A stretch of 64,000 nucleotides of DNA, taken from Chryseobacterium sp. StRB126 (GTDB lineage: Bacteria; Bacteroidota; Bacteroidia; Flavobacteriales; Weeksellaceae). The notes below the pieces were generated by a model. It was not told the origin of the DNA. It did no database searches and was given only the letters and a program-made list of their open reading frames with translations. Shown here one piece after another: positions 1,713 through 43,984 of this stretch. Positions within the stretch are counted from its first letter, which is position 1. Every line of letters begins with the position of its first letter. Where the stretch lies: NCBI RefSeq assembly GCF_000829375.1, contig NZ_AP014624.1:3720001-3784000 (forward strand). The letters are read 5' to 3'. The position numbers were made by a program, and so were the translations under genes.

Positions 1713-3440
1713 TTACCAAAACCTTACATATAAAGCAGTCAGTAAAAGCAGTGTCATCACAATCAAAACCAGTGTTCTGTTGTCCACTTTAAACATCGTT
1801 GCATCAATGGCAAAGGCTTTAGGATTTACTTTAGGACCCGCAAGACTGATGAGTATCATGGCAATTATTGTGATAAAAAACGACCATCCCATATTGATCA
1901 GGAAAGGAATCTCGGTAATAGTATGTACCACTCCATTCTCCAGTTTTTCATACGTGAATGCCGTATACATCCAGGTTTCTTTTCCGAAAATACCCACAGC
2001 AAAACTGTTGAAGAAAATGGCCAGGACAAAACCTAAGATCACTCCTACCAAAGCAGCTGTACCAGTCGTTCTTTTCCAGAACATTCCCAGAAGGAACATG
2101 GCAAATACTCCCGGACTGATAAAACCTGTATATTTCTGGATAAAGGTAAAACCTCCTTCTCCACCAATCCCCAAAACGTCTGTCCAGGTAAAGGCTAATG
2201 CTACCATCATCGCAATAATAATAACCCAGCGGCCTGTTCTTACCATCTGAATTTCGGTGGCATCTGCTTTAAGATATTTCTTATAGATATCCAGTGTAAA
2301 AATAGTTGAGATACTGTTTACTTTTCCTGCCAGTGAAGCTACAATTGCTGCCGTCAAAGCGGCAATGGCCAATCCTTTAAGTCCCACAGGCAAAAATCCC
2401 AATATTGCAGAATACGCTCCATCTTTCACTCCGTTGAATCCCGGAAGGTGTCCTTTGGAATATAATACATACGCTGCAATTCCCGGAAGCATAACAATCA
2501 CAGGCATGAATAGCTTCAGAAAACCAGCAAACAGAATTCCGGTTCTTGCCGTTTTCAGGTCTGCTCCCAATGCTCTTTGGGTAATATACTGATTGCATCC
2601 CCAATAATTCAGATTAACAATCCACTGGCCGGCAAAATACATAGCAAGACCTGGCAATACCACATATTTCTGTACCTCCAGGTTCTGAGGCATATCCAAA
2701 GTGGTAGTGGTGGTCGCTGGTTTTTCAAGAATCAGTTTAAAATGCTGCGGAGCCTCATTAATCAGGGTATTGAAACCAGCCAGCGCATTCCCTACAGCCG
2801 CTCCGTTGATTCTCTGGTCCACAATCTGTAAAGCCATATACACCGTTGCAAAACCGCCGATAATAAGAACAGCCACCTGTATAACGTCTGTATACCCGAT
2901 TACTTTCATTCCTCCGAGTCCAATCAGAAGGGCCATAAGCAAAAGGGCGATCATAATACCGTGAAGGTGCTCTCCTCCCAATAAGGTATCAATGGCAAGA
3001 GCTCCGAGATAAAGAATGGAAGTAAGGTTCACGATAACATACAGAAACAGCCAGAATACTGCCATGATGAGTGAAACAGATTTATTATACCTTCTCTCCA
3101 GAAACTGGGGCATGGTATAAATCTTATTTTTAAGATAGATCGGTATAAACCAGACTGCAATAATGATCAGCGCAAGAGCAGCAATCCATTCATAGGCGGC
3201 AACGGCAATTCCGACAAAGAAACCTTCACCGCTCATTCCGATGAACTGTTCAGCGGAGATGTTGGAAGCAATTAAGCTGGCTCCGATAGCCCACCAGGTC
3301 AAAGATCCTTCCGCAAGGAAATAATCCTTACTTCCTGTGGATTCAGATTTTTTCTTTTTATAGATCCATAGTCCGTAGGAGGCTACCACTACGAAATAGA
3401 TCAGGAATATGATGATATCAATAGTTGCTAATTTTCCCAT
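1713..3440 (-). CDS. Sodium/solute symporter (SSS family), probable pentose transporter
   Basis: This 575-residue, very hydrophobic inner-membrane protein belongs to the sodium:solute symporter family (SGLT-like, LeuT fold). The N-terminus shows a membrane helix followed by the family pattern SKDYFLAEGSLTWWAIGASL and then NISAEQFIGMSGEGF. It is the last gene of the araB-araD-araA-epimerase-symporter run, three bases downstream of the epimerase gene. That context suggests L-arabinose (or another aldose released by the locus) as the substrate, driven by Na+. The sugar itself cannot be read from the sequence; xylose or galactose are alternatives. The family and membrane location are secure. Confidence 0.88.
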   Translation of the reverse strand: MGKLATIDIIIFLIYFVVVASYGLWIYKKKKSESTGSKDYFLAEGSLTWWAIGASLIASNISAEQFIGMSGEGFFVGIAVAAYEWIAALALIIIAVWFIPIYLKNKIYTMPQFLERRYNKSVSLIMAVFWLFLYVIVNLTSILYLGALAIDTLLGGEHLHGIMIALLLMALLIGLGGMKVIGYTDVIQVAVLIIGGFATVYMALQIVDQRINGAAVGNALAGFNTLINEAPQHFKLILEKPATTTTTLDMPQNLEVQKYVVLPGLAMYFAGQWIVNLNYWGCNQYITQRALGADLKTARTGILFAGFLKLFMPVIVMLPGIAAYVLYSKGHLPGFNGVKDGAYSAILGFLPVGLKGLAIAALTAAIVASLAGKVNSISTIFTLDIYKKYLKADATEIQMVRTGRWVIIIAMMVALAFTWTDVLGIGGEGGFTFIQKYTGFISPGVFAMFLLGMFWKRTTGTAALVGVILGFVLAIFFNSFAVGIFGKETWMYTAFTYEKLENGVVHTITEIPFLINMGWSFFITIIAMILISLAGPKVNPKAFAIDATMFKVDNRTLVLIVMTLLLLTALYVRFW

Positions 3441-3443
3441 AGT

Positions 3444-4601
3444 TTAGTTTTTAACGGAGAATTTATAGATGGTTTTCGACTGGTATTTCTGCCCTGCCTT
3501 CAATTCTGTGGAAGGGAAAGAAGGCTGGTTCGGTGAATCCGGGAAATGCTGGGTTTCCAGGCAGAATCCTGTTCTGAATTCATTTTTACCTCCTGTTTTG
3601 GTATCAAACTTTCCGTCAAGAAAATTACCGGAATAAAACTGTACACCAGGTTCATCTGTAAAGACTTCCATCAGTCTTCCTGTTTCCAGATGATAGACTT
3701 TGGCTATGCTTCTGAGACCCTTACCATTCAGAATCCAGTTGTGATCATATCCTTTTCCTTTTTTCAGCTGATCATCGTCTGCATTGATATCTTTTCCGAT
3801 GGGTTTTGAAACCGTGAAATCAAAGGGAGTTCCTTTTACCGCTTTCTGCTCACCGGTAGGAATCAGAGTTTCATTCACAGGTAAAAACTTATCTGCATTA
3901 ATCTGCATTTCATGATCGGTAATCGTTTTAGTAAAATTTCCGGACAGGTTAAAATAAGAATGCTGGGTAAGATTCACCACTGTAGGCTTATCGGTTTCTG
4001 CTTCATAGGAAATTTCCAAAGCATTATCGTCTGTAAGCGTGTAGAAAACGGTTGTTGTTAATTTTCCCGGATATCCTTCTTCACCATCTGCACTGGTATA
4101 AGATAATTTCAATGTCGGAAATTTCGCATCTTTTACGGCCTCAATATTCCAGAATCTGGTATGAAATCCTTCTTTTCCTCCGTGAAGACTATTGGGACCG
4201 TCATTTTTATCAATTTCGTAAGTTTTCCCTTCCAGTGTAAACTTTGCATTGGCAATCCTGTTGCCGTATCTTCCGATCAAAGCCCCGAAATAATAAGGGT
4301 TGCCATCAAAATATCCTTCTGGTTTTGTAAAGCCAAGCACTACATCTTCGTATTTCCCATTCTTATCAGGTACGGTTAAAGAAGTGATAATCCCACCGAA
4401 GTTGATGACCTCAACTTTCATCCCGTTTTTATTGGTCAAAGTATATTTTTTAATAGAATCGTCTTTTGGCGTAACTCCATAGTCTGAAGTAGAAATGTTC
4501 TCCATTTTTCCTGAAATATCCTGTTTATTATTTTCTTTTTTACAGCCGAAAATAATTAAAAATAATAAAATAAAAATGCCATTATGTGTTGTTTTTTTCA
4601 T
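3444..4601 (-). CDS. galM: Aldose 1-epimerase (mutarotase), lipoprotein
   Basis: This GalM-type mutarotase interconverts alpha and beta anomers of free aldoses. The N-terminus has a lipoprotein signal peptide ending in a lipobox (IIFGC-KK), so the protein is anchored to a membrane and probably faces the periplasm. Family motifs are visible: GRYGNRIANAKF, NSLHGGKEGFHTRFW with a catalytic His, TQHSYFNLSG with a second His, DHNW, and a C-terminal FRTGFCLETQHFPDSPN block with the catalytic Glu. At 385 residues it has the usual length. It sits between araA and the symporter, so it probably prepares arabinose or galactose anomers for uptake and isomerisation. Confidence 0.92.
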   Translation of the reverse strand: MKKTTHNGIFILLFLIIFGCKKENNKQDISGKMENISTSDYGVTPKDDSIKKYTLTNKNGMKVEVINFGGIITSLTVPDKNGKYEDVVLGFTKPEGYFDGNPYYFGALIGRYGNRIANAKFTLEGKTYEIDKNDGPNSLHGGKEGFHTRFWNIEAVKDAKFPTLKLSYTSADGEEGYPGKLTTTVFYTLTDDNALEISYEAETDKPTVVNLTQHSYFNLSGNFTKTITDHEMQINADKFLPVNETLIPTGEQKAVKGTPFDFTVSKPIGKDINADDDQLKKGKGYDHNWILNGKGLRSIAKVYHLETGRLMEVFTDEPGVQFYSGNFLDGKFDTKTGGKNEFRTGFCLETQHFPDSPNQPSFPSTELKAGQKYQSKTIYKFSVKN

Positions 4602-4628
4602 AATTATTTACATATTTTTTAAAATTAA

Positions 4629-6125
4629 TTAACGATAATACATTTCATTCCAACGAAGTGTATTTTTAAAATCACGTATTCTGGTATCTTCATCAATGAC
4701 TAATGATTCAATGCCTGCTATCTCAGCAAAATCTTCCAGCTGTTCTGCTGAAATATTTTCACTGTAACATGTATGGTGTGCACCTCCTGCCAGTATCCAG
4801 GCTTCTGCAGCCGTATATAAATCAGGAAGTGGTTTCCACAAAACTCTTGCTACCGGAAGTTTTGGCAGCTCTTCTGTAATTTCCAATGCTCTGGTTTTGT
4901 TGATCAGCAGTCTGAAATGATTTCCAAAGTCCATTAAAGCAGCGTTTAATGAATCAATATTTCCTCTGGAGTTAAAAACGAGACGAACCGGGTCTGCTTT
5001 TCCTCCGATTCCGAGCGGATGGATCTCACATGAAGGTTTTCCGGCTGCCAGCACAGGATCTACTTCCAGCATATGGGAACCTAAAATGGAAGGATTGGAA
5101 GGATCTAAATGATAGGTATAATCTTCCATAAAGGCATTTCCTCCTTCAAGGCCCTGCCCCATTGTTTTCATGGCACGTACCAGTGCTGCTGTTTTCCAGT
5201 CTCCTTCTCCTGCAAATCCGTAGCCCTTCTGCATCAGGCGCTGTACTGCAATTCCAGGCAGCTGTTCCAGGCCGTGAAGGTCTTCAAAGGTATCTGAAAA
5301 TCCTTTAAATCCTCCGTCTTTTAAAAATTTTTCAAGCCCTAATTCAATTTTGGCGGCGGTGTGCAGTGAACTCCTGTTGGCCCCACCTTCCAAAAGGGAG
5401 GCTGCCATGTGATAAGAAGACTCATATTCTTCCATCAGACTTTTTATTTCTCCTTCACCTACAGAATTGATAACGCCTACAAGATCACCAATTCCCCAGG
5501 TATTGACTGAGAAACCGAACCTGGTTTCAGCTTCCACTTTATCACCATCTGTAACGGCTACAAATCGCATATTATCTCCAAATCGTGCAAATTTAGCTCC
5601 CTGCCAGTCGTCCCAACCTGCAGCAACACGGCTCCAGTCGCCAATCTGTTTCTGAACTCTTTCTTCTGACCAGTGCCCTACCACGACTTTTCTGTTCTTT
5701 CGGAGCCTGCTGACCATAAAACCAAATTCACGGTCACCATGAGCGGCCTGGTTGAGATTCATAAAATCCATATCCATGGTAGACCACGGAATATCTCTGT
5801 TGAATTGGGTATGCAGATGCAGAAGAGGTTTCTGTAAAATTTTTAATCCTCTGATCCACATTTTAGCGGGTGAAAAGGTATGCATCCACGTAATTACTCC
5901 TATGCAGTTTTCTGCATGATTGGCTGCTGCAATGGTTTCAAATATCTCTTCGGTAGTTTTTACCGTTGGCTTTACCATAATTTTTACCGGGATAAAAGAA
6001 GATTTTTCCAATTCTGCCACAATTTTTTGTGAGTGGTCTGCTACCTGGGCCAATGTTTCAGGTCCGTATAAATGCTGACTTCCTGTGATGAACCAGACTT
6101 CTTTGGTATTGAGAGGTGTTAACAT
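4629..6125 (-). CDS. araA: L-arabinose isomerase
   Basis: This enzyme converts L-arabinose to L-ribulose in the cytoplasm using a divalent metal. The 498-residue length is typical of the family. The N-terminus [14 protein letters not shown] is diagnostic. The [29 protein letters not shown] and [18 protein letters not shown] blocks are also characteristic. The C-terminal [16 protein letters not shown] segment carries a metal-binding His pair. It follows araB and araD and precedes the epimerase, giving a standard arabinose catabolic operon without any CDS overlaps. Confidence 0.97.
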
Positions 6126-6164: not shown

Positions 6165-6890
6165 TTAGTGTTTAAATTCCTGTCCGTAATAAGCATTCTT
6201 ACCATGTTTACGTTCATAGTGTTTTTTGATGAGTGAGTCTTTCAGACGTTCTGCATCAGGATTGATCTGTCTGGTGAGATAAGCCATTTCGGCAATGGTC
6301 TCCAGCACTTTACTGTTGTAGACTGCCTTCTCTGCATTTTTCCCCCATGTAAACGGACCGTGGTTTCCAATCAGGACCATTTCTACTTCTTCAGGAGAGA
6401 GTTGTTTTTCTTTAAAGCATTCCAGAATCTGTATTCCTGTATTGTATTCGTAGTTTCCTTCAATGAGTTCATCCCGCATAGGTGGAGCACAGGGAATATC
6501 TGTCGTAAGATGATCTGCATGGGTGGTTCCGAAAACAGGAATATCCATTTGTGCCTGTGCCCAGGCCACGGAATAGATCGCATGAGTGTGGGAAATCCCA
6601 CCGATATTTTCCCAGTTTTTGTACAAGTAAGCATGGGTCTTGGTGTCGGAAGAAGGTCTGAGCCTGCCTTCAATGACATTGGCATCAAAGTCAAGAATCA
6701 CCATATCTTCCGGCTTTAAAATGTCGTAAGGAACACCGCTGGGTTTAATGGCAAAAATGCCTTTATCACGGTCTACAGTGCTTACATTCCCGAAGGTATA
6801 AACCACCAACTTCAGGGCATCCAGCTGCATATTGGCTTCATAACATTCTCTTTGGAGTTCTTTATAGGTATTCATTTGAGTGTCATTCAA
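6165..6890 (-). CDS. araD: L-ribulose-5-phosphate 4-epimerase
   Basis: This is a class II aldolase/adducin-fold epimerase. It converts L-ribulose 5-phosphate to D-xylulose 5-phosphate, the entry point to the pentose phosphate pathway. Zinc ligands are visible in GGISHTHAIYSVAWAQA (HTH) and in a later NHGPFTWG His. The FGTTHADHLTTDIPC segment and the C-terminal AEMAYLTRQINP match AraD. It is 241 residues long, slightly above the roughly 230 of the Escherichia coli enzyme. It lies between araB (18 bp upstream) and araA (39 bp downstream). Confidence 0.96.
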   Translation of the reverse strand: MNDTQMNTYKELQRECYEANMQLDALKLVVYTFGNVSTVDRDKGIFAIKPSGVPYDILKPEDMVILDFDANVIEGRLRPSSDTKTHAYLYKNWENIGGISHTHAIYSVAWAQAQMDIPVFGTTHADHLTTDIPCAPPMRDELIEGNYEYNTGIQILECFKEKQLSPEEVEMVLIGNHGPFTWGKNAEKAVYNSKVLETIAEMAYLTRQINPDAERLKDSLIKKHYERKHGKNAYYGQEFKH

Positions 6891-6908: not shown

Positions 6909-8609
6909 TCAGAAATTCTGAAGTTCTTTCCTGTTGTTTTTCAGCTTGGTATTATATTCTACAAAATCAGCGAGCTTCTGGTATTGCTGCATTAGTTCTC
7001 TGTAGTACTGTACTTCTTCAGCTTTCGGCTGGTATTCCGCTTCAAATCCGGAGCCCATTTTCATGCTGGCATCCTGAACGGTCGGATAAATTCCTGCTGA
7101 TACGGCCGCATAAACAGCAGCCCCCAGCGCAGGAGTCTGGTCCGAAGCGGCAACAACAATCGGCATATCCAGAACATTAGCGAGTGTCTGCATGATAAAC
7201 GGCGATTTCCTTGCTACTCCTCCGATCCCAATCACTTTATTGATTTTCACACCTTCCTCTTCAAAACGGTCAACGATCTTTTTAGCTCCGAAACAAATGG
7301 CATTCACCAAAGCTTTGAAAATATGGGGTGCTTTTGTTCCCAAAGAAAGCTGACTGATCGCTGCTTTAAGTTCCTGATCTGCATCCGGTGTTCTTCTTCC
7401 GTTTACCCAGTCCAAGGCAATCGGAACGGTATCTGAAAGAGGAATTTTTTCTGCTTCAAGGGTTAATTTTTTGATAAGTCCTACCTCCATTTCATCTGCG
7501 AGCTTTGTCTTCTGTTCATCTGAAATATTTTCGGAATGCATCATAACCTGGTGAACCGGCCACATCAGGATATCTTTATACCATGCCAGCACATCTCCAA
7601 AGGCAGACTGCCCTGCTTCAAGCCCTATCAGTCCTGGAATTACGGAGCCGTCAACCTGTCCGCAGATTCCTTTTACCGTTGTATCCCCAATAGCTTCTTG
7701 TGAGGCCACCATAATATCACAGGTAGAAGTTCCCATAATCCTGATCAGTGTATTTTCTTCCACTCTTGCTCCCACAGCTCCTGAATGGGCATCAAAAGTT
7801 CCTACTGTAATAATGGTCTGGGTTGTAAGACCCGTTTTAGCGGCCCATTCTTCATTCAGATATCCTGCTATTTCATCTGAAGTATACGTTTCCCGGTATA
7901 ACCTTCCTCTGAGCTCTCCCAGAGAAGGATCAAGCCTGTTGAGAAACTCTTCAGAGGGCAGACCGTCCCATGACTCGTGCCACATGGCTTTGTGGCCTGC
8001 TGCACAACGGCTTCTTTTGAAGGTGGCCAGGTCTTTATGATCAGATAAAAGGAAAGTCAGATAATCACAGTGTTCCATCCAGCTATAAGCTGCATTTTTT
8101 ACTTCTGCATCTGCTCTGCTGATGTGCAATATTTTAGCCCAGAACCATTCTGAAGAATAAATGCCGCCTTCATATTTTGTATAATCTTCTCCACCCCATG
8201 TTCTTGCCAGGGTATTGATTTCTTCGGCTTCGCGGATGGCGGTGTGGTCTTTCCATAAAACCATCATAGCATTAGGATTCTCTTCAAATCCGGGAACCAA
8301 TGCTAAGGCTACTCCATCACTTGTTACTGGTAGTGGTGAAGAGCCTGTAGTGTCTATACAAATACTGACGATCTGCTCCGGCGGTATCCCGCTTTCTCTT
8401 ACTACTTCTGAAATGGTTTTCTCCAGGCCTTCCATATGATCTGAAGGATGCTGTCTGAAACTATTAGCTGAGGGATTACAAAATTTACCTTCCTTCCATC
8501 TCTGGTAGTAGCTGACTGAAGAAGTTATTTCCGACCCGTTTTCAGTATCAATAAGGACGGCCCGTACGGAGTCTGTACCATAGTCCAGCCCGATAACATA
8601 TTTTTTCAT
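6909..8609 (-). CDS. araB: Ribulokinase
   Basis: This FGGY-family carbohydrate kinase phosphorylates L-ribulose to L-ribulose 5-phosphate. The N-terminal phosphate-binding loop YVIGLDYGTDSVRAVLID is present. So are the GTFDAHSGAVGA segment with the catalytic Asp, IMGTSTCDIM, and the C-terminal GGVARKSPFIMQTLANVL adenosine motif. The length of 566 residues fits ribulokinase and exceeds xylulokinase. It is the first gene of the arabinose operon. A -7 element and a candidate operator precede it, and that operator sequence recurs upstream of the Nudix regulator gene at the other end of the locus. Confidence 0.96.
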   Translation of the reverse strand: MKKYVIGLDYGTDSVRAVLIDTENGSEITSSVSYYQRWKEGKFCNPSANSFRQHPSDHMEGLEKTISEVVRESGIPPEQIVSICIDTTGSSPLPVTSDGVALALVPGFEENPNAMMVLWKDHTAIREAEEINTLARTWGGEDYTKYEGGIYSSEWFWAKILHISRADAEVKNAAYSWMEHCDYLTFLLSDHKDLATFKRSRCAAGHKAMWHESWDGLPSEEFLNRLDPSLGELRGRLYRETYTSDEIAGYLNEEWAAKTGLTTQTIITVGTFDAHSGAVGARVEENTLIRIMGTSTCDIMVASQEAIGDTTVKGICGQVDGSVIPGLIGLEAGQSAFGDVLAWYKDILMWPVHQVMMHSENISDEQKTKLADEMEVGLIKKLTLEAEKIPLSDTVPIALDWVNGRRTPDADQELKAAISQLSLGTKAPHIFKALVNAICFGAKKIVDRFEEEGVKINKVIGIGGVARKSPFIMQTLANVLDMPIVVAASDQTPALGAAVYAAVSAGIYPTVQDASMKMGSGFEAEYQPKAEEVQYYRELMQQYQKLADFVEYNTKLKNNRKELQNF

Positions 8610-8664: not shown

Positions 8665-8713
8665 CAAATATAAGATTCTATTTTAAATAAATGTAAAAAA
8701 CACACTTATTATT
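8665..8713 (-). promoter_or_regulatory. araB promoter with candidate sugar-regulator operator
   Basis: On the - strand, TATATTTG at 8672-8665 matches the Bacteroidota -7 consensus TAnnTTTG and lies about 55 bases before the araB start. Immediately upstream, 8681-8713 matches 44261-44293 at 30 of 33 positions in the same orientation. The shared core is AAATGTAAAAAACACACTT. I see no clear -33 TTG. The operator role is an inference from the repeated sequence and its position. Confidence 0.55.
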
Positions 8714-8737
8714 TATAATAATTTAATTATCAATTAA

Positions 8738-10726
8738 TTAAATTGATTTCACCTTTAAAACAACTAAAGAATTGGCAGGGATTTCAGTGGAGATTCTCCC
8801 ATTTTTAGAGCTAGAAATCTCTTCTTTAGGTTTTACAGGTTCAGTATCGAAATTATTTTCACTGGAAAGCTCTGGTGCAGACAGAAAAATTTGGGTTAGT
8901 TTTTTGCCAAGTTTCAGAGTTCCGGGATTGATATTGATTATCTTAGACTGAGTATCAGTATTGACCATTTTAATAATGATCTCATGAGTTTTTGCATCTT
9001 TTACTGCTGTAGCATATAATTTCTCCTGTCCGGATACTGCTTTTCCGTTGCTTTCTATTTTCAGTACATCCGTTCCTTTATTGTTGGAGAATAATTTCTG
9101 AACATAATAGTTTGGGGTTGCATAAGATTTCAGATTATTGAACCAGATGAGATCGGGCGTCCACTGCCAGCCATCAGCATGGGCAAAAAGCGGTGCGTAG
9201 GAAGTCATATAGACCACATCTGCGTTTCTTTCAAGACCGGTCATGAAAGCGGCTTCTGAAAGGGCTGTCAGCCAGTTATTTTTATTATCAGGTTTTACCA
9301 CTCCTACTGATTGGGCTGCATATTCTCCGGCAAAAACTTTTGGCCCGGAACGGTCATACTGATCATATCTTCCTGCATTTTTCATGAACCATTCTGGTGA
9401 ATTGTAATAATGTTCATCTACAATCTGAGCATTAAGCTGTTTCAGTTCTTTCCAGCCATATTCGAAGAACTCGCCATCGGGTGACGGTCCGCTTCCGGAG
9501 ATGATCTTAATGTCAGGATATTTTGCATGAATGGCTTTTTCAAAAACTTTATAGCGTTCGATATAATCTGCTCCCCACTGTTCATTTCCCACTCCGATAA
9601 ATTTTAAATTAAAAGGCTTTGGATGTCCCATTTCATTACGGATTCTCCCCCATTTTGTTCCGGAATCTCCGTTGGCAAATTCAATCAGATCCAAAGCATC
9701 CTGAACGTAGGGATCAAGGTCTTCCATTTTCACCAGTTCTGCCGTATTGAACTGACAAGCCATACCACAGCTCAGAATAGGAACCGGTTCTGCACCCAGA
9801 TCTTCGGAAAGCTGGAAATATTCAAAAAATCCTAACCCGAAGGACTGTCCGTAATCCGGTGTAAGCCTGTGCGGAAATCCGGTGCTCCATTTGTTGATCA
9901 GATATTCACGGTCTGCTACATTTCCCACTGTTTTTTTCCACTGATACCGTTCTGCCAGCGTTCTTCCTTCAACAATACAGCCTCCCGGAAACCGCAGAAA
10001 TCCCGGTTGCAAATCATATAATTTCTGAACCAGATCTTTTCGTAAGCCTCCTTTTCTGCCTTTCCAGGTGTCCTGCGGGAAGAGGGAGATCATATCCATG
10101 TTCACGATGCCGTTTCCGGTAAATGTAATTCGCAGTTTTGCTTTTTCTACAGTTTGTGGTGACTTAAAAACGGCTGTATATCTCTGCCATCCCTTTCCTT
10201 TTATAAGTATGGAGACTGAAGAAATTTCCTTACCGCTTTCATCAACAAGACTTGCATTTACCGCAGCAATATTTCCTGAAACATTCTCCAGATCAAAGCT
10301 GAAATCAAATTGTTCTCCCTGATGAAGCCCTATTCCTCTGAAACCTTCATTCTCCAGAATATAATTTTTATCATTCAGAACAGTAATTCTTGCGTAATTT
10401 TTATTGGTTTTGGCAGGGTCGGAATAAATGGTCAGAAATCCGGAATCCAGATTAGGAGAGAGCGTTTTTGTATTGGGCTGTTTCCAGCCTGTGAATGGTT
10501 CATCAAATTCAAAGCTGCGGTTTTTAATCAATTCCGCATACAATCCGCCGTCTGCGGCAAAATTGATGTCTTCAAAGAAAATCCCATACATGGTAGGCTG
10601 TATTTTAATAGGTGCCGGGCTTTCTTTAAGGTCCAGATTAAATGTATGGACCGTATTATTCTGAGCCGAAAAAAAAGCAGCGCTCAGAGAAATTGCAATG
10701 GAAAATATTTTATTTTTTGTTGTCAT
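8738..10726 (-). CDS. GH51 alpha-L-arabinofuranosidase
   Basis: This enzyme removes alpha-L-arabinofuranosyl side chains from arabinoxylan or its oligosaccharides. A signal peptide (about residues 1-21, ending near FFSAQ) is followed by a carbohydrate-binding-like region at about 75-215. The GH51 barrel then shows FLRFPGGCIVEG, GNEQWG with the acid/base Glu near residue 382 and DEHYYNSPEWF with the nucleophile Glu near 438. The C-terminal beta domain is complete. The gene lies between the GH3 gene (53 bp upstream) and the arabinose operon, so the released arabinose would feed directly into AraABD. Periplasmic location is inferred from the signal peptide. Confidence 0.94.
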   Translation of the reverse strand: MTTKNKIFSIAISLSAAFFSAQNNTVHTFNLDLKESPAPIKIQPTMYGIFFEDINFAADGGLYAELIKNRSFEFDEPFTGWKQPNTKTLSPNLDSGFLTIYSDPAKTNKNYARITVLNDKNYILENEGFRGIGLHQGEQFDFSFDLENVSGNIAAVNASLVDESGKEISSVSILIKGKGWQRYTAVFKSPQTVEKAKLRITFTGNGIVNMDMISLFPQDTWKGRKGGLRKDLVQKLYDLQPGFLRFPGGCIVEGRTLAERYQWKKTVGNVADREYLINKWSTGFPHRLTPDYGQSFGLGFFEYFQLSEDLGAEPVPILSCGMACQFNTAELVKMEDLDPYVQDALDLIEFANGDSGTKWGRIRNEMGHPKPFNLKFIGVGNEQWGADYIERYKVFEKAIHAKYPDIKIISGSGPSPDGEFFEYGWKELKQLNAQIVDEHYYNSPEWFMKNAGRYDQYDRSGPKVFAGEYAAQSVGVVKPDNKNNWLTALSEAAFMTGLERNADVVYMTSYAPLFAHADGWQWTPDLIWFNNLKSYATPNYYVQKLFSNNKGTDVLKIESNGKAVSGQEKLYATAVKDAKTHEIIIKMVNTDTQSKIININPGTLKLGKKLTQIFLSAPELSSENNFDTEPVKPKEEISSSKNGRISTEIPANSLVVLKVKSI

Positions 10727-23782: not shown

Positions 23783-24661
<879 letters not shown>

Positions 24662-24937: not shown

Positions 24938-24993
24938 ATCTGAATACTTATTTTATTTATCTGTTTACAGCAGACTTTTCCCTGCTAATTTTG

Positions 24994-31549: not shown

Positions 31550-31553
31550 GGTA

Positions 31554-32972: not shown

Positions 32973-33010
32973 TATTTACTTTTACAATCCTGGATTTTAA
33001 TTCTAAACTT

Positions 33011-33195
33011 GTTTAAACTTTATAAAACCACAAAAGTCACAAAAGCTTTATTTTAAAACACTTTAGTTCACATAAGTAAGTTTAAAATGATTCTGCAGAA
33101 AGTTCACATAAGATGAAAATCAAAGATTTTCACAAAACTTAAGTGTACTTATTATGCATAAAGCTTAGCTCTAAAAAATTTAAGTGGTTAAACCT
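33011..33195. repeat. Fold-back intergenic repeat, copy B (inverted relative to copy A)
   Basis: This segment is the reverse complement, with scattered differences, of 24745-24937. It occupies the gap between uxaC and the mannonate oxidoreductase. With copy A it brackets the two GH43 genes plus exuT, eda, kdgK and uxaC. No coding sequence is visible. Confidence 0.8.
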
Positions 33196-33202
33196 TTAAC
33201 AT

Positions 33203-33243
33203 TAAAAAAACAGGACCTTGCATGAAACCATTAAGGTCCTGTT
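33203..33243 (-). terminator. Rho-independent terminator after the mannonate oxidoreductase gene
   Basis: The arms AACAGGACCTT (33209-33219) and AAGGTCCTGTT (33233-33243) pair over 11 bp with a 13-nt loop. On the - strand the hairpin is followed by a run of seven T. It lies 25 bases past the stop codon at 33269. Confidence 0.85.
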
Positions 33244-35371: not shown

Positions 35372-37336
35372 TTAGTTGTATCCGGGATTCTGATATTTTG
35401 CTTTATCTGTCGCAGACATTTCAGTCATTGCATCTAACTGTCCTTGAGGAATTGGTCTCAGGTAATGATATGGCTGAATATTTCTTGTAAAATTCTGTGG
35501 CGTATGATTTCCATAAGCTGTTCCTCCTATCTGATAAGTTGCGGCATATTCTGCCCACTTTTGAGTTCTTACCAAATCAAACCATCTGTAAAATTCACCA
35601 TAATATTCTCGTGATCTTTCTGCTAAAATATAATCTATAGTAATAGTAGCAGGCGTTGCTGCAATCATAGCTGCACTATTGTCGGCAATATATGCGGCAT
35701 TATTTTTATTACTAAATCTCCATTTTCCTGCTCTTGCACGAATTACATTGATCAAATCTCGCGCACTCATAGCACCTGAAGCACCTTTTACAGCCGCTTC
35801 TGCGGCAATGAAATAAAACTCGGAAAATTTAGCCACAGGGAATGGCCTTGTTAAAGCAGCATTTGGATAACCTAAACCAGTAACGTCATTTGTCTGATAT
35901 GTTCCAATTTTCCAAAGTCCCGGATATACAATTCTGCTAATTCCGTTAGGTGAAATTACCCAATCTGCACGTCCAGGCAAAACACCGGCACCTACACTAT
36001 TTTGGCCACCATCAGAAGGATAAGCAATATTTGATAGCTGAGAATCATCATCCAAGAAGCTTAATATTGCTCCTCCTATCGGGACAGGAAGATTATTGGC
36101 ATTGTATAGTGTTGTAACAGTTTCCAAGCCTGTTCCTGTTTTCTGCCAGTTTCCTCTGTAAGTAGTTACAAAAGTACCATCATAGCGGGAATCGTTATTT
36201 TTATCGGCAAAGGTATTTTTGATAACCCCGATAGGCGGAGCCATACGTACCCAAGGTCTCCCCAGCGATTGCGCCGCTTCTCTTGTGATCGGACTTGCAG
36301 GAGTCCATGAAGTAGCCGATTTACTACTTTTGATATTAGTATAATTCCAGGTTTGCATCCAGGTAGCGAAGTTATCCGGAGCCCATCCCGAACCGTATCC
36401 TACGGGATCACCTTCGTTATAAAAAATACTAGATGCTGTATGATCTGCGTAAAGCATATGCTCTGAATTGCGGTCTTTAGAGCCTTCATTTACATCATAG
36501 TAAGTAGGTTGAAGTGCATAAGATCCTGGATTATTAATACCCTGTAGAGATAAATCATATGCTTTTTGAAAATACCATTGTGCATTATGGCCATCAAGAT
36601 CCGTTCGTGCAGTATCAGGATATGTCGGGATATTATTAGGATTTTGCAACCACCAACCGTAAGTAAGATATGCTTTAGCTAAAATCAGCCTTGCCACATT
36701 TTTTGTAACCCCACCCGTAACTCTAGGGGTTGCAGGAAGATTGTCTATTGCTTTTAATAAATCAGGAAAAATACCTCTTGAATATACCTCAGGAACCGTA
36801 TTTCTTTTGGACAAAGTTGTAGGTGAAATGTTCAGAACCAGTTCTCCGGAACCTAAATCCAACGGTACACCGCCATACGTCTGTACTAATTGGAAGTAAT
36901 AAAATGATCTGAAAAAACGAGCTTCAGATACAAGAGATTCAGGAAGATTAAATTTCGGTGCTCTTTCTATAATACCATTAGCTGTATTAATATAAGGAAA
37001 AACGGATCCCCAAACCATACTCGTAGGAAAGGTATTAGAGTTTATTGCTCCGGCACCACCTGTCATATCCAGATCTTTAAAATTACCGTCTGCACTCTGA
37101 GCCCAAGTCGCCTCATCCGTTCCGTTCTGCGTTGCGCTCATATAATAACCGTTACCATAAAGAAGACGTAAACTTCTGTACAATGCAGTTACGCCAGATG
37201 TTACGCCATCTGCAGAATTGAAATAATCAACCGTATATCCTGATCTGGGTTGTTCGTCTAGAATCTCATTACAGCTAGACAATACTAGTGAAGCCACTAC
37301 AATTCCCAATACAATTTTTTTGTTAATTTTTATCAT
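35372..37336 (-). CDS. SusD/RagB-family outer-membrane glycan-binding lipoprotein
   Basis: This 654-residue SusD-like lipoprotein is expected to cap the SusC barrel and bind xylo-oligosaccharides at the cell surface. The signal peptide ends in a lipobox (LVLSSC-NEI). The early TVDYFNSADG segment, the SEARFFRSFYYFQLVQTYGGVPL motif (read in parts) of the TPR-like fold, FYFIAAEAAV and the C-terminal EFYRWFDLVRT and HYLRPIPQGQLD are family hallmarks. It starts 13 bases after susC ends. The ligand is inferred from context. Confidence 0.93.
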   Translation of the reverse strand: MIKINKKIVLGIVVASLVLSSCNEILDEQPRSGYTVDYFNSADGVTSGVTALYRSLRLLYGNGYYMSATQNGTDEATWAQSADGNFKDLDMTGGAGAINSNTFPTSMVWGSVFPYINTANGIIERAPKFNLPESLVSEARFFRSFYYFQLVQTYGGVPLDLGSGELVLNISPTTLSKRNTVPEVYSRGIFPDLLKAIDNLPATPRVTGGVTKNVARLILAKAYLTYGWWLQNPNNIPTYPDTARTDLDGHNAQWYFQKAYDLSLQGINNPGSYALQPTYYDVNEGSKDRNSEHMLYADHTASSIFYNEGDPVGYGSGWAPDNFATWMQTWNYTNIKSSKSATSWTPASPITREAAQSLGRPWVRMAPPIGVIKNTFADKNNDSRYDGTFVTTYRGNWQKTGTGLETVTTLYNANNLPVPIGGAILSFLDDDSQLSNIAYPSDGGQNSVGAGVLPGRADWVISPNGISRIVYPGLWKIGTYQTNDVTGLGYPNAALTRPFPVAKFSEFYFIAAEAAVKGASGAMSARDLINVIRARAGKWRFSNKNNAAYIADNSAAMIAATPATITIDYILAERSREYYGEFYRWFDLVRTQKWAEYAATYQIGGTAYGNHTPQNFTRNIQPYHYLRPIPQGQLDAMTEMSATDKAKYQNPGYN

Positions 37337-37349: not shown

Positions 37350-40229
37350 TTAGAAAGATAAATTAATTCCCATTATAAAGTTTCTTGTTGCAGGATTATT
37401 AGTTCCTATAATCAACTGACGATTTTTGTATCCGCTTACAGCCTGATTTTGATCACCTGTAGAGTTCGGTTCAGGATCCATTCCAGACATTTTATGGTAT
37501 GGAGAATAAATTATCAGCGGATTTGTAACCGTAAAATAAATTCTTAAGCTGTTAATGTTAAAATCTTTAAGAAAATCCTTACTTAAGTTATACCCTAATG
37601 TGATTGTTCTTAATTTCACGTATGACCCGTCAAAAAGACCTAGAGTTGACAGATACTTCGGATTATCACCACTTAACAATCCGCCTGGTTTCGGGAATCT
37701 TGCATCTGTATTATCATCCGTATAGTAATCTACATCTACGTTATTTCCTCTACCAGTTAATCTATTCAAGTAACCTGCAGAACCATAAATAGAACTGATC
37801 AGAACACCTCCTTTTTGGAATGCGCCTACTGTACTCAATTCAAAGCCTTTGTAAGCAAAACGCATATTGAAACCTCCTTGCCAATCCGGATTGGTATCTA
37901 TAATTTGTCTATCTTCAGGACCTATAGCTCTCACAGGTGTCCCATCTGCATTATACCCTCCTGTATATAGAACTTTAATCATACCTGGAGCAGCGCCGAC
38001 CTGAGGTTCAAGAATACTCAAATAAGGATCTCCTTGTTGCCATAAACCTACATACTGATAATCATATAGTGAATTTACATTATGACCCACGAACCATAAA
38101 TTATTTTCATCTCTTTGTGCACCGGATGCAAGTGATAGAATTTTGTTTTTATTAGCATACCAGTTAACTCCGGCGTCCCAGCTGAAACCATCCGGTTTAT
38201 CAATAATAACTGCATTAAGGGAAGCTTCCCAGCCTTTGTTTTCAATATCTCCTACATTTTGTAATATTCCTCCCGGAATCCCTGAAGTTGGAGGTAAACT
38301 CTTATTTTGAAGTATTCCGGAAGTATGTGTTCTGTAATATTCTACTGTCCCGTTGATTCTATTGTTAAGAAACCCAAAATCCAATCCAGCATTGTGGGTT
38401 TTGGAATATTCCCATCCTAAGAAAGGGTTTGGAGCTGTATTAATAGAAACACCTGTAGAATAAGCCCCTCCAAAGTTATATGGATTAACAGTTAAGCTTC
38501 CTAAAGTTGTATAAGGTGCAATAGCTTGATTTGACGTTTCTCCCCAACCATATCTTAATTTCAAAAGATTAACGAATTGGAAAGTTTTCATAAAGTTTTC
38601 ATTAGTAATATTCCACCCCACAGAGATTGCAGGATAGGTATTCCATTTGTGCCCTTCTGCAAGTACAGAAGCACCGTCCCTTCTAAGAGTAGCTGTAATC
38701 ATATACTTATTGTCATACGTATACATCGCTCGTCCCATATAGGAAACCAATCCTGTTCTGGCATAAGATTGATCTTCAGGCCTTACAGTAATATCAGCTT
38801 GCGGAGATTGACCTAGATTATAATATTGAAAAAAATCTGCAGGTACATTTTTAGCACTCATATAACTACTTGTATAAGTATTTTGTTCAGAAGAATATAA
38901 GGCAACAGCATTTATCTTATGTTTTCCGAAAGTCTTATCGTAAGTCAATAAGTTCTCTATAGTCCAGTGATAGGTTTGGTTATTACCCTTGCCCGCAGAA
39001 GAAATAGAAGCAGGATTTGTATTAAATACTCCTACCCCTGTATAATTTCCACTATTTGAGGTTCTGAAATCCAATCCTACATTTATACGGTATTTCAATC
39101 CATCTATTGGTAATTTTACTTCACCATACATGTTATTATAAGATGAGAAAGCTTTTGTTTCATCTACATATTTCTCTCCCAGAGCTTTAAGACTTTCTCT
39201 TGTATAAACCCAGGCCTGATCCATATTTGATGACATCGTTAATGTTCTTCTCGGATTACCAAATTCATCATACGGACTGGCCAAAGGTGAATATCCCAAG
39301 GTAGGAGCTGAAGCAATACCATTACCCTCTGATTTTACATAATTGGAATTTGTAGTAAAACCAAATTTAAAATTTTTTCCGATCTGCTGATCCAGACCTA
39401 ATCGAAATCCAAAACGTTCATAACTTTGTAAAGGAACTATCGCGTCTTGCTTCAAGTATGACAAACCAACATTATAATTACCCCCTTCTGTACCTCCGGA
39501 AACTCCAACATCATGGTTCGTTATCATTGCAGGCTTATAATACAGTTTTTGCCAGTCCGTATCAACTCCGTTTTTTTCACTGTCTCCATTTTTGATGAGA
39601 TCATTGGCATCATGTCTCAGCTTAGTCAATTGGGCAGCATTCATCATAGGATACCTGGAAAACAGAGTCTGGCTCCCTGTGAAAGAATTATAAGTAAATC
39701 TAGGTTTTAGTCCTTTTGCCCCTCTGTTTGTTGTAACTAAGATAACCCCGTTCGCTCCTCTGGAACCATAAATAGCGGTTGCAGAAGCATCTTTCAGGAT
39801 ATCTACACTCTTGATGTCACTAGAACTTATATCTCCCAAAGATCCCACAAAAGGAATTCCATCCAATACGATAAGCGGATCATTTGCAGAGTCCGATAAT
39901 GATCTTGTCCCTCTAATTCGTATTTTCATGGTTGCCCCCGGCTTGCTGGACGTTTGATTGATTTCTACCCCGGCGCTTCTGCTTTGTAGAGCCTGTGTTA
40001 TATTTGCAGTAGGAACTTCTCTAAGGGCTTCACCTTTTACAGTTACAACCGAACCCGTTACAGCTTCTTTTCTCTGCGTTCCATATCCTATTACAACAAC
40101 TTCATCTATTTTATTTTCTTTAGCTACTGTATCTTTTTTAACCTGTGAATATGCTATGCCGGAAGGCAATAAAGTCATTGCAAAAAATAATGCAGCTCTA
40201 TTGCTTTTATTGAAATAAAATCGGTTCAT
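37350..40229 (-). CDS. SusC/RagA-family TonB-linked outer-membrane transporter
   Basis: This outer-membrane beta-barrel imports oligosaccharides using TonB energy. The signal peptide (about 1-29, ending IAYSQ) is followed by a TonB-box region, IDEVVVIGYGTQRKEAVTG. The plug domain then shows SRSAGVEI, IRIRGTRSLS, PLIVLDGIPF and ILKDASATAIYGSRGANGVI. The barrel ends ATRNFIMGINLSF. At 959 residues it lacks the N-terminal carboxypeptidase-regulatory-like domain seen in most SusC proteins, since only about 15 residues separate the signal peptide from the TonB box. It is the only SusC here, placed between xylA and susD. Confidence 0.93.
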   Translation of the reverse strand: MNRFYFNKSNRAALFFAMTLLPSGIAYSQVKKDTVAKENKIDEVVVIGYGTQRKEAVTGSVVTVKGEALREVPTANITQALQSRSAGVEINQTSSKPGATMKIRIRGTRSLSDSANDPLIVLDGIPFVGSLGDISSSDIKSVDILKDASATAIYGSRGANGVILVTTNRGAKGLKPRFTYNSFTGSQTLFSRYPMMNAAQLTKLRHDANDLIKNGDSEKNGVDTDWQKLYYKPAMITNHDVGVSGGTEGGNYNVGLSYLKQDAIVPLQSYERFGFRLGLDQQIGKNFKFGFTTNSNYVKSEGNGIASAPTLGYSPLASPYDEFGNPRRTLTMSSNMDQAWVYTRESLKALGEKYVDETKAFSSYNNMYGEVKLPIDGLKYRINVGLDFRTSNSGNYTGVGVFNTNPASISSAGKGNNQTYHWTIENLLTYDKTFGKHKINAVALYSSEQNTYTSSYMSAKNVPADFFQYYNLGQSPQADITVRPEDQSYARTGLVSYMGRAMYTYDNKYMITATLRRDGASVLAEGHKWNTYPAISVGWNITNENFMKTFQFVNLLKLRYGWGETSNQAIAPYTTLGSLTVNPYNFGGAYSTGVSINTAPNPFLGWEYSKTHNAGLDFGFLNNRINGTVEYYRTHTSGILQNKSLPPTSGIPGGILQNVGDIENKGWEASLNAVIIDKPDGFSWDAGVNWYANKNKILSLASGAQRDENNLWFVGHNVNSLYDYQYVGLWQQGDPYLSILEPQVGAAPGMIKVLYTGGYNADGTPVRAIGPEDRQIIDTNPDWQGGFNMRFAYKGFELSTVGAFQKGGVLISSIYGSAGYLNRLTGRGNNVDVDYYTDDNTDARFPKPGGLLSGDNPKYLSTLGLFDGSYVKLRTITLGYNLSKDFLKDFNINSLRIYFTVTNPLIIYSPYHKMSGMDPEPNSTGDQNQAVSGYKNRQLIIGTNNPATRNFIMGINLSF

Positions 40230-40321: not shown

Positions 40322-41650
40322 TTATATATACATATTCACGATGGCCTCAAACAGTTCCTGTTTTCCGCTTTTTGGCTGTGGTTCGCCTATTTCGTGAGCA
40401 ATTCTCTGAAGATCTTCCAAGGTAAGCGTACCTTCCTCGAATGCTTTTCCACTTCCGTTATCAAAAGAAGCATAACGGTTTGTTTTCAGTTTTTTGTAAT
40501 CCGAATTTTCAAAAATATCCGCTGCCGCAAGAAGACCTTTAGCGAATACATCCATTCCTGAAATATGAGAAATGAATAAATCTTCAGCATCAATAGAATT
40601 TCTTCTGATTTTGGCATCAAAGTTTACGCCTCCGGTTCCCAGACCTCCTGCCGGAAGCAGTACCAACCATGCCTGAACCATATCATAATAATCGATCGGA
40701 AACTGATCCGTATCCCAGCCGTTTTGATAATCTCCTCTGTTCGCATCAATACTTCCTAAAAGCCCTGCATCAACAGCAACCTGAAGTTCATGTTCAAATG
40801 TATGACCTGCCAATGTAGCATGATTCACTTCGATATTCAGTTTAAAGTCTTTGTCTAGTCCATAGTGTCTCAGGAATCCGATTACGGTTTCAGAGTCATA
40901 ATCATACTGATGTTTGGTAGGCTCCATTGGTTTAGGTTCAATAAGGAAAGTTCCTTTAAATCCTTGCTGACGGGCATAATCTCTCGACATGGAAAGGAAA
41001 CGGGCCAGATGATCTTTTTCACGCTTCATATCGGTATTTAAAAGACTCATATATCCTTCTCTTCCACCCCAGAAAACATAGTTTTCACCTCCAAGTGCAA
41101 TGGTGGCATCTATTGAATTTTTCACCTGGGTTCCTGCGCAGGCTACAACATCAAAATTGGGATTGGTAGAAGCTCCATTCATGTATCTTTCATGCGTGAA
41201 AACATTTGCTGTTCCCCATAAAAGTTTAATTCCTGTTTCCTTCTGCTTTTGTTTTGCATACTCCACAATAGTCTGCATATTCTTCTCATAGTCTTTCCAA
41301 TTATTGGCGGGGTCTACCAAATCGATATCATGGAAACAGTAATAATTGAAGCCCATTTTAGACATGAATTCAAAGCCTGCATCCATCTTATGCATTGCTC
41401 TGGTCACAGGATCATTTCCGATATCCCATGGGTGGTGGATAGTAGGTCCTCCGAATGGATCGCTTCCGTTTGCACATAAGGTATGCCACCATGCCATTGC
41501 AAATCTGGTCCAGTCTTTCATTGGTTTTCCCATTACGATCTTTTCAGCATCATAATAACGGAATGCCAACGGATTCCTGCTTTCCTTCCCCTCAAACTTA
41601 ATTTTTTCAATACCTGTAAAAAACTCTTTTGTACCTGTTAAAGTGTTCAT
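40322..41650 (-). CDS. xylA: Xylose isomerase
   Basis: This TIM-barrel isomerase converts D-xylose to D-xylulose with two divalent cations. It shows [26 protein letters not shown] with the catalytic His, VFWGGREGY and [17 protein letters not shown] with a metal Glu. [18 protein letters not shown] and [19 protein letters not shown] hold metal ligands. The 442 residues match the long class II type common in Bacteroidota. It lies downstream of xylB across a 107-bp gap with a perfect palindrome, and upstream of susC. Confidence 0.97.
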
Positions 41651-41727: not shown

Positions 41728-41757
41728 AAGCGGATGAAAAATGCTGTTGTAACTTTT

Positions 41758-43242
41758 CTAGATTATTTCGTTAAGATGATGTTTCCATCTGGCATAGGCT
41801 TCTAAATATTGTTCTTGTTTTTCGTGTTCAGGCTCTATCACCGCTATTTTTTCAAGTGAAGAAAATGCTTCTTTGGAGTCTGAGTAAAACCCTATTCCCA
41901 TTCCGGCAGCTCTTGCTGCTCCTACCGCTCCATCAGTATCATAAAGTTCAATGACCGCATTGCTGACGCTGGATAACGACTGACGAAAAATTGAACTTAA
42001 AAACATGTTGGCATTTCCTGCACGGACAACCTGGATATCCATTCCGATATTTCTCATGATATCCATTCCGTACTCATAAGAGAATACAATACCTTCCTGT
42101 GCCGCACGCAGTATATCTCCTTTAGTATGTATGTTGAAATTAATTCCGTGAATAGAACAACTTGTATCTTTATTTTCAAGCACTCTCTCAGCTCCGTTTC
42201 CAAAAGGGATAATACTTAATCCTTTTGATCCTATAGGTGAAAGCGAAGCCATATCATTCATATCACCGTAAGAAGAGAGTGAGGTTGCAAAATTATGTTT
42301 TAACCAGGAATTTAAAATTCCAGTGCCATTGATACAAAGCAAAACTCCCAGCCTGATCTGTTCTGGTGCGTAATTGACATGGGCAAAGGTATTGACCCTT
42401 GATAATTTATCATATTCCAGCTGATCAAGAACTCCATACACCACTCCGGAAGTTCCTGCAGTAGAGGCAATTTCTCCCGGATTAAAAACATTCAGTGAAA
42501 GAGCATTGTTGGGCTGATCTCCTGCCCTGTATGAGATGGGCGTTCCTTCTTTTAAACCTAATTCTTCAGCCGCAATTCTGGAAACGGTTGCCTGAATACC
42601 AAATGTGGGGACAATTTCCGGGAAAAAACTTTTAGGAATCCCATAGTGGTTAATGATATCTTCCGAGATACAGTTATTCTTAAAATCCCAGAAAATTCCT
42701 TCTGATAATCCTTCGATGGTTATTCCTATCTGCCCTGATAGTCTCATCGCAATATAATCTCCAGGAAGCATTATTTTATCTATCTTTTCAAAAATATCAG
42801 GTTCATTTTCTTTTACCCATGCGAGCTTTGATGCCGTAAAATTTCCTGGTGAATTCAACAGATGGGAGAGACATTTTTCTTCTCCTATTGTTTTAAAAGC
42901 TCTTTCACCATAAGGTACAGCACGGCTGTCACACCAGATAATGGATGGTCTTAGAAGGTTCTGATCTTTATCCACCAGAATCAAACCATGCATCTGCCAT
43001 GTGATTCCAATTCCTTTAATATCTTCAGCATGTACACCGGATTCATGCATAACAGCTTCATGTGCCAATTTCAGATTGATCCACCAGTCCACCGGATTTT
43101 GCTCTGCCCATCCCGGATTTATCGCAGTGATTTTCATTTCTTTTTTGGGAGAAAATTCAGAAGCAATCACTTTTCCACTGGATGCCTCAATGAGACACAC
43201 TTTCACAGAAGAACTGCCAATGTCATAGCCTAGTAAGTACAT
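41758..43242 (-). CDS. xylB: Xylulokinase
   Basis: This FGGY-family kinase phosphorylates D-xylulose to xylulose 5-phosphate. Visible blocks are YLLGYDIGSSSVKVCLIE (ATP loop), ITWQMHGLILVD with IIWCDSRAV, SYRAGDQPNNALSLNV with the catalytic Asp, and STAGTSGVVYGVL. The C-terminal VVRAGNANMFLSSIFRQ block precedes GAVGAARAAGMG. The 494 residues fit xylulokinase. It follows the Nudix regulator gene by 16 bases and precedes xylA, so all three may share a transcript. Confidence 0.95.
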   Translation of the reverse strand: MYLLGYDIGSSSVKVCLIEASSGKVIASEFSPKKEMKITAINPGWAEQNPVDWWINLKLAHEAVMHESGVHAEDIKGIGITWQMHGLILVDKDQNLLRPSIIWCDSRAVPYGERAFKTIGEEKCLSHLLNSPGNFTASKLAWVKENEPDIFEKIDKIMLPGDYIAMRLSGQIGITIEGLSEGIFWDFKNNCISEDIINHYGIPKSFFPEIVPTFGIQATVSRIAAEELGLKEGTPISYRAGDQPNNALSLNVFNPGEIASTAGTSGVVYGVLDQLEYDKLSRVNTFAHVNYAPEQIRLGVLLCINGTGILNSWLKHNFATSLSSYGDMNDMASLSPIGSKGLSIIPFGNGAERVLENKDTSCSIHGINFNIHTKGDILRAAQEGIVFSYEYGMDIMRNIGMDIQVVRAGNANMFLSSIFRQSLSSVSNAVIELYDTDGAVGAARAAGMGIGFYSDSKEAFSSLEKIAVIEPEHEKQEQYLEAYARWKHHLNEII

Positions 43243-43258
43243 AATTTTTAAAAAGGGG

Positions 43259-43984
43259 TTATTTTATAAGTTTTGTATTGTTTTTCTTGTAAATCTTAGC
43301 ATCAAATCGGTAATATCTTGCTGCGCGGTGCGATACATCTTTTTGAATTTCGTCCAAAGGAACAATATAGGGGAATGAAGATATTTTTTTATGAAAATTC
43401 TTAATATCAATATTTTTTTCATTTAAAGCGCTGTAGAGCTGATAGAGCTGTCTTATGGTAAATCTTTTTGGCAGCAGCTCAAAAATAATGGAAAAATCAG
43501 ATTCAATCCATTTTCTGATCTCCATCAAAGATTCATTGATGATTTTATTATGGTCAAACGGTAGTACCGGAACCTCATCAATAGGGTACCAGTCTACGGT
43601 ATCATATTTTGTACTATTGATCTTATGATCTATTTTACAAAGGGAAAGATAGGCCACTGTAATAATCCTGTCTATATGATGTTTATATTCCTGATCCATC
43701 CATTTGATATCATGTACATTGCTTGCTCTCATGGGGTCTGCAAAGCATTTAAACTGCTTGAGAACCATTTTTTTTATCCCTGTAAGTTCGTGAAGTACCC
43801 TTTGTGCAGCATCATCTACATCTTCATCACTGAAAATCAAACTACCGGGAAGTTTAATCTGTTTTTCCAATGGTACATCATCAACATGGCGTTGTACTAA
43901 TAATATATTCAACCGGTTTTCATGGTCAAATCCAAAGACAACACAATCTACAGAGACATAGGTATGGATAAAGTTCTGATTCAT
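43259..43984 (-). CDS. Nudix-domain transcriptional regulator of pentose utilisation (AraR/NrtR-like)
   Basis: This 241-residue protein has an N-terminal Nudix domain (about 10-145) and a C-terminal winged helix (about 155-235). The latter includes LPKRFTIRQLYQLYSAL and ends RAARYYRFDAKIYKK. This is the NrtR/AraR architecture. In Bacteroides, AraR of this type senses L-arabinose and represses arabinose genes. The Nudix box is degenerate: starting at GSLIFSDEDVDD, the REUxEE positions read QRVLHE, so hydrolysis is unlikely and the domain is probably a ligand sensor. It is the only regulator inside the xylan locus. Arabinose, xylose or a phosphorylated derivative could be the effector. Confidence 0.88.
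   Translation of the reverse strand: MNQNFIHTYVSVDCVVFGFDHENRLNILLVQRHVDDVPLEKQIKLPGSLIFSDEDVDDAAQRVLHELTGIKKMVLKQFKCFADPMRASNVHDIKWMDQEYKHHIDRIITVAYLSLCKIDHKINSTKYDTVDWYPIDEVPVLPFDHNKIINESLMEIRKWIESDFSIIFELLPKRFTIRQLYQLYSALNEKNIDIKNFHKKISSFPYIVPLDEIQKDVSHRAARYYRFDAKIYKKNNTKLIK

Follow-up and report, generated by a model that had tools for sequence, protein, structure and literature searches.

Descriptions of xylan polysaccharide utilisation loci (PULs) in gut Bacteroides usually assign control to hybrid two-component sensors and place the genes of sugar catabolism elsewhere. The PUL described here lies in a window of 64 kb (the whole stretch of DNA analysed; positions 3,720,001 to 3,784,000 of contig NZ_AP014624.1) of the 5.50-Mb single-contig genome of Chryseobacterium sp. 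StRB126, where 26 genes on the minus strand (1713–43984) combine enzymes acting on decorated xylan with the pathways for xylose, arabinose, and glucuronate. The PUL is of a known type, and its operon for xylose catabolism and SusCD-type import has probably been wired to the arabinose regulator AraR.

The Bacteroides AraR regulon (NrtR family, BT0354) shares with this locus the branch of the regulator, the form of the operator (GTGT-N7-ACAC, with three gel-shift-tested sites), and the set of arabinose genes (mutarotase, transporter, araD, araA, and araB; araMPRDAB in Bacteroides), and, as is predicted here, also reaches PULs with GH51, GH43, GH97, and SusCD, including arabinan PULs (PMC4666351). 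By contrast, araR is located on the opposite strand here, and a xylan PUL lies next to the arabinose genes. The xylRBAE operon of Bacteroides likewise begins with a Nudix-type (NrtR) regulator (XylR, BT0791), followed by xylB and xylA, whereas susCD and uxuAB come next in the present locus, no gap being longer than 107 nt (available part of PMC3878776). The xylan PULs of Gramella flava, which are induced on xylan, resemble it in their GH10, GH43, and GH67 genes and in the downstream location of xylA and xylB (there with a xylose transporter), but the available part of that account names no genes of arabinose or glucuronate catabolism and gives a LacI-type regulator (PMC5306329). What the analysis adds is the regulator pair and a predicted operator that would tie arabinose to the xylose operon, fsa-galKT, and araR itself; boxes before xylR-xylBA and fsa-galKT are not met in the portions of the Bacteroides accounts covered (PMC4666351, PMC3878776).

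AraR-type boxes and the two Nudix regulators

The locus extends about 17 kb beyond the left edge of the window. In this left flank, araR is encoded on the other strand (contig positions 3718403–3719089); the features of the window that bear on its control are the following:

43259–43984, minus: nudR, Nudix and NrtR winged-helix regulator of the XylR type (Pfam NrtR_WHD, AraR_C, NUDIX; 116 bits to the Bacteroides protein BtAraR, 5bs6), heading the xylose/SusCD run
44269–44287, minus: AraR-type box AAGTGTGTTTTTTACATTT, 285–303 nt upstream of nudR
43991–44019, minus: candidate XylR operator, consisting of the core promoter element TATATTTG (44012–44019) and then ATGTTACNNAAATGTTAAC (43991–44009)
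8689–8707, minus: AraR-type box AAGTGTGTTTTTTACATTT, ending 16 nt before TATATTTG (8665–8672) of the araB promoter
33200–33241, minus: hairpin and T-run 3' of uxuB, a likely terminator (-15.5 kcal/mol; not listed by a separate scan)
1561–1608, minus: strong terminator-like stem of 20 pairs 3' of the SSF symporter gene

Both boxes are part of a near-repeat of 41 nt (8681–8721, before araB, and 44261–44301, before the regulator gene), the core of which is the palindrome AAGTGT-N7-ACAYTT. In its strict form, the motif occurs at five places in the 5.5-Mb genome, which rules it out as a frequent motif, and four of these fall within 58 kb (3706099–3764288), preceding araB, xylR-xylBA, araR, and fsa-galKT. 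The clustering has a binomial P of 6e-8, or of 3e-4 (two of three) when the two sites that seeded the motif are left out. Taken alone, the search of the window is weak: two matches with no more than two mismatches arose in 8 of 100 shuffled sequences, and neither real site has a mismatch. Positions 2446764–2446784 hold the fifth strict box, in the 3' terminal part of a TonB-receptor gene. A lipoprotein-like open reading frame without a Pfam match follows 313 nt later, and the box could represent either chance or a further target.

Conservation was followed in 148 genomes of the same family (the present one included), which, like a sample of 296 genomes of the order, were drawn by the search tool. 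AraR orthologues (at least 74%) are present in exactly the 30 family genomes that possess araA. Among 30 fetched regions upstream of araB, which represent 29 genomes, 28 contain the box (1.05 expected by shuffling; none for the reversed control), and the two exceptions belong to araA copies that are not within 60 kb of a GH115 gene (G073 and G111:C3). The araB box ends 15–16 nt before TAnnTTTG in all 29 cases, including the window; it would occupy the expected position of the -33 element, consistent with simple promoter blocking, and constitutes a well supported predicted AraR operator. The left flanks of 20 of the 29 other genomes with AraR were fetched, and the box precedes araR in 19 and fsa or galK in 11 of them; together, they contain 30 boxes, compared with 0.1 expected and one for the reversed motif. 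Upstream of xylR, a relaxed box was found in 25 of the 30 genomes with AraR and in none of the 8 without it (absence meaning that no protein matched the left-flank AraR with an E value of 1e-45 or below), and AraR is predicted to act there as well. This set comprised 34 regions, and 39 after the addition of the window and four loci; a second, boxless xylR copy of G136 stands outside both counts. Many of the relatives' xylR upstream regions also show a TTCTTATCAT stretch some dozens of nucleotides after the AraR box.

Aligned with BtAraR (232 bits) and read by eye, the left-flank AraR retains the arabinose-binding residues Arg34, Arg86, and His131 of that protein. Among the six DNA contacts of BtAraR (residues from the available part of PMC4666351), Lys179, Arg180, and Asn181 are identical, positions 204 and 205 are swapped to Arg/Lys, and position 184 is changed. 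Its gene clusters with arabinose genes and with boxes of the GTGT-N7-ACAC type. The window regulator keeps the sugar-binding residues but has Ile179, Lys180, and His204 and was therefore called XylR type; residues and scores in the comparison with BtAraR rule out that it is AraR itself. As a Nudix winged-helix regulator clustered with xylBA, it falls into the XylR class, to which it was assigned without direct comparison to BT0791, and its effector would be D-xylose.

The element TATATTTG-N2-ATGTTACNNAAATGTTAAC is found on the xylR promoter in 34 of the 39 regions, including four of the eight without AraR, which makes it a likely XylR operator. A search for further XylR operators returned the known site alone in the window, where 34 of 100 shuffles also matched at up to three mismatches, and no comparable match in the left flank. 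TAnnTTTG is present in 2 of the 12 intergenic gaps examined. The hairpin and T-run after uxuB argue against a single transcript across the block, which was rejected, and the co-induction as one unit that had been anticipated is doubtful on both counts. Scans for sigma-70 promoters, Rfam families, and tRNAs led nowhere.

Extent and gene content of the locus

The block, in which no intergenic gap exceeds 338 nt, appears likely to form the window-side two thirds of a glucuronoarabinoxylan utilisation locus of about 61 kb. Adjacent susC and susD genes linked to carbohydrate-active enzymes identify a SusCD-type PUL, and the enzyme families suggest a lineage-typical, enlarged locus for decorated xylan, with glucuronoarabinoxylan as the predicted substrate. 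The remaining genes of the block are:

41758–43242, minus: xylB, xylulokinase-like (304 bits to TIGR01312, cut-off 380)
40322–41650, minus: xylA, xylose isomerase (TIGR02630, 678 bits, above cut-off)
37350–40229, minus: susC (TIGR04056, above cut-off)
35372–37336, minus: susD (PF07980, PF14322)
34117–35292, minus: uxuA, mannonate dehydratase (family searches)
33269–34084, minus: uxuB-type SDR, D-mannonate oxidoreductase (NF006132, 383 bits, above cut-off)
31554–32972, minus: uxaC, glucuronate isomerase of a locus-type class (family searches)
30551–31693, minus: kdgK, 2-keto-3-deoxygluconate kinase type (PfkB from residue 53; true start probably downstream)
29919–30554, minus: eda, 2-keto-3-deoxy-6-phosphogluconate (KDPG) aldolase type (family searches)
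28644–29918, minus: MFS transporter, hexuronate-type by context (TIGR00893, below cut-off)
26753–28471, minus: GH43-GH43_C2 (a) (family searches)
24994–26607, minus: GH43-GH43_C2 (b) (family searches)
23783–24655, minus: PF00756 esterase, feruloyl-esterase-like (FAE; best NCBIfam match to the C-terminal part of Xylase_Ferestase, 150 bits, cut-off 1200)
22368–23744, minus: GH43 with CBM6 (family searches)
20428–22365, minus: GH97 (closest solved relative 5xfm, 790 bits)
19157–20404, minus: GDSL esterase, weakly acetylxylan-esterase-like (AxeA1 model, 25 bits, cut-off 700)
16617–19139, minus: GH115 alpha-glucuronidase (PF15979; end-to-end with the solved enzyme 4c90, presumably from B. ovatus, 867 bits)
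13612–16347, minus: GH30 with a type IX secretion system (T9SS) sorting domain (198 bits, 650-bit cut-off of the XynC equivalog)
10780–13413, minus: GH3 beta-xylosidase, Xyl3A-like (NF041776, 1185 bits, cut-off 1250)
8738–10726, minus: GH51-type alpha-L-arabinofuranosidase (family searches)
6909–8609, minus: araB, ribulokinase (family searches)
6165–6890, minus: araD, L-ribulose-5-phosphate 4-epimerase (family searches)
4629–6125, minus: araA, L-arabinose isomerase (family searches)
3444–4601, minus: galM/araM-type mutarotase (family searches)
1713–3440, minus: SSF symporter, araP-type by context (family searches)

The original prediction had described a complete locus of 24 genes whose substrate could be read from gene content. 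The functions it named are all encoded on the minus strand, where family searches agree with them (some at family level alone), the routes for xylose, arabinose, and glucuronate do lie in one collinear block, and the enzyme families fit decorated xylan. There are, however, 26 genes, and the last of these, at the upstream end, is the regulator gene nudR, which was missing from the earlier list. GH30 had been named as the backbone cutter; it has a T9SS tail and shares two Glu residues, presumably the catalytic pair, with its closest solved relatives, but with a score far below the XynC cut-off the match does not settle the exact specificity. Likewise, both esterases are present, although the likeness of the GDSL enzyme to AxeA1 is weak.

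The locus is not complete within the window, because GH10, GH67, a further GH43, an esterase, an oligosaccharide-type symporter, and the galactose route lie outside. The left flank encodes, on the strand of the locus, a GH127-type enzyme (closest structure chain 5opj; presumably GH146), a SASA-type esterase, a GPH symporter (oligosaccharide-type), GH10, GH43, and GH67 and, farther left, an AraC-type gene, fsa (fructose-6-phosphate aldolase/TalC type), galK, and galT. The endo-xylanase and the second alpha-glucuronidase family missing from the window thus adjoin it. All 20 fetched left flanks contain araR and the SASA, GPH, GH10, GH43, GH67, galK, and galT genes; 19 also have the GH127-type gene and 11 have fsa. 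No hybrid two-component sensor was found among the annotated genes of the window part and left flank of the locus.

Distribution of the arrangement

A GH115 gene is present in 34 of the 148 family genomes, and the window protein shares 94–96% identity with its counterparts in named Chryseobacterium species such as C. cucumeris, C. rhizosphaerae, and C. rhizoplanae. Of the 34 genomes, 33 have xylA within 60 kb of GH115, 27 have araA, 20 have uxaC, and 17, belonging to two genera, have all three; near copies are always on the same strand, and the counts are lower bounds because some contigs are broken. In a neighbouring family of the order sample, araA and GH115 lie within 60 kb on one contig in 1 of the 21 genomes carrying both (the GH115 match is weak in two of these, and linkage cannot show in drafts that split the genes between contigs). 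All 14 Flavobacterium GH115 loci resemble the present one in adjoining SusC and/or SusD and esterases but differ in that none has ara, xyl, uxu, or uxaC genes within 10 kb. Elsewhere in the Bacteroidota, unplaced members included, uxuA lies within 10 kb of GH115 in 7 of 17 loci, some of which are on short contigs. The comparison of gene order in relatives that had been suggested shows a same-strand linkage; the arrangement, held to be unusual, is typical of its lineage and rare outside it. The earlier reading is right in kind, too narrow in extent, and too strong on rarity.

A reduced version, in which xylR-xylBA-susCD-uxuAB-GH43 and GH115 stand without an arabinose module, is found in four genomes that lack araA, one of which also possesses uxaC-kdgK-eda-MFS. 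Together with the linkage in the two genera, these smaller forms identify the block as a lineage habit assembled from modules. The uxaC genes fall into two score classes: all 19 copies of the locus-type class (598–615 bits) are near both GH115 and xylA, whereas only 1 of 47 higher-scoring copies is near GH115 and 5 of 47 are near xylA; one fragment (G067, 196 bits) belongs to neither class. Eleven genomes with a locus-type uxaC also carry the other class elsewhere. In the relative G137, a further GH115 copy (C29:79090-80139) is broken into fragments, with one TGA, near an intact copy. No title or abstract describing either the locus or an AraR site at xylR was found in the literature searched, outside which most subscription papers lie.

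Alternative explanations for the control of the locus

Several observations weigh against the wiring of AraR to the xylose/SusCD operon. At one mismatch, the genome shows no enrichment of the motif (12 + 17 occurrences, compared with 24 + 28 for the reversed motif), so that only strict sites count. The association of AraR with the box at xylR (Fisher P 2.6e-5, overstated because it follows kinship) gives just two supported independent contrasts, or five in all, too few for significance. The box at xylR is missing from five genomes with AraR, among them G073, a natural contrast whose araA is more than 60 kb from GH115 and whose araB is likewise without a box. Unlike the araB box, the xylR box of the window ends 249 nt before the sole clear promoter, a distance from which AraR would have to act. 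The presence of fsa and of the box before fsa or galK disagrees in 4 of 20 left flanks (two with the box but no fsa match, two the reverse), and neither a box nor TAnnTTTG precedes uxaC, GH43a/b, FAE, GH30, or GH3. The window regulator keeps three of the six DNA contacts (Asn181, Lys184, and Arg205), as many as AraR, and may thus bind the box itself; the candidate XylR element occurs in just half of the regions without AraR, and the terminator-like hairpin lies within the block. Finally, the glucuronic acid of xylan is often 4-O-methylated, and no demethylase was noticed at the locus.

A stronger form of the wiring would make AraR the master switch of a xylan super-locus, with L-arabinose opening the operons for the backbone sugar, SusCD, glucuronate, and galactose, and with boxes gained together with the arabinose module atop an older, glucuronoxylan-only core. 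This can be put forward only tentatively, the odds being against it.

Somewhat less probable still is separate control, in which both regulators read GTGT-N7-ACAY, XylR occupies the box before its own gene, and each operon answers to its own sugar without cross-wiring. XylR and AraR are paralogues (35% identical), the box sits in xylR's own upstream region, and its association with AraR lacks the backing of independent contrasts; XylR retains the three contacts given above, and since each protein keeps three of the six, context speaks more strongly than residues for assigning the box to AraR. However, XylR has Ile and Lys in place of Lys179 and Arg180 of BtAraR, the box is absent from all eight genomes that have XylR but no AraR, and the xylR promoter bears the other conserved element described above, also in regions without AraR.

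It is improbable that the sugar operons merely came to adjoin an ordinary xylan PUL as a tidy inventory without shared control: although Gramella flava is already known to carry xylAB next to a xylan PUL (PMC5306329) and Bacteroides to have araMPRDAB and xylRBAE operons with AraR and XylR (PMC4666351, PMC3878776), as far as the available parts of these accounts extend, all three sugar routes are linked on one strand in 17 genomes of two genera, the left flank is conserved, and the strict AraR-type boxes cluster at the locus.

Other features of the region

An intergenic inverted pair of about 183 bp (24755–24938 and 33010–33192, 90% alike) surrounds the stretch from uxaC to GH43b; with 37 matches in the genome, it is a dispersed element and was rejected as a locus-specific switch. 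Between araR and the ara operon, a cellulase-type (PF00150) protein with a ricin-type lectin domain is encoded on the opposite strand (2–1546, plus). Beyond the block, a direct repeat of 210 nt (44775–44984 and 51630–51839, 85% alike) brackets old yellow enzyme (OYE), SDR, and AraC genes (45008–51148), and a protein of 1059 amino acids (52306–55485, plus) combines AMP-binding, PP-binding, and NAD_binding_4 domains in a layout like that of carboxylic acid reductases.

Proposed working and implications

In the proposed working of the locus, GH30 and the left-flank GH10 would cut the backbone; the esterases and the GH115, GH67, GH43, GH51, GH97, and GH127-type enzymes would remove side groups; and the products would be imported by SusCD and the symporters. 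The sugars would then be passed to central metabolism by xylAB, araBAD, uxaC-uxuBA-kdgK-eda, and the left-flank fsa-galKT. Two Nudix repressors of one NrtR branch, at or near the ends of the locus, would govern these steps: XylR may bind a separate operator in the promoter region of xylR-xylB-xylA-susCD-uxuAB, and AraR may recognise GTGT-N7-ACAY boxes before araB, araR, fsa-galKT, and xylR. Once side chains yield L-arabinose, this sugar would free araB of AraR, and the xylose/SusCD operon would respond to it as well.

In place of hybrid sensors, this locus has two small regulators of a sugar-binding type at its flanks. Its arabinose, xylose, and galactose operons share an operator of a tested type, which bears on whether a side-chain sugar may signal the presence of the whole polymer.

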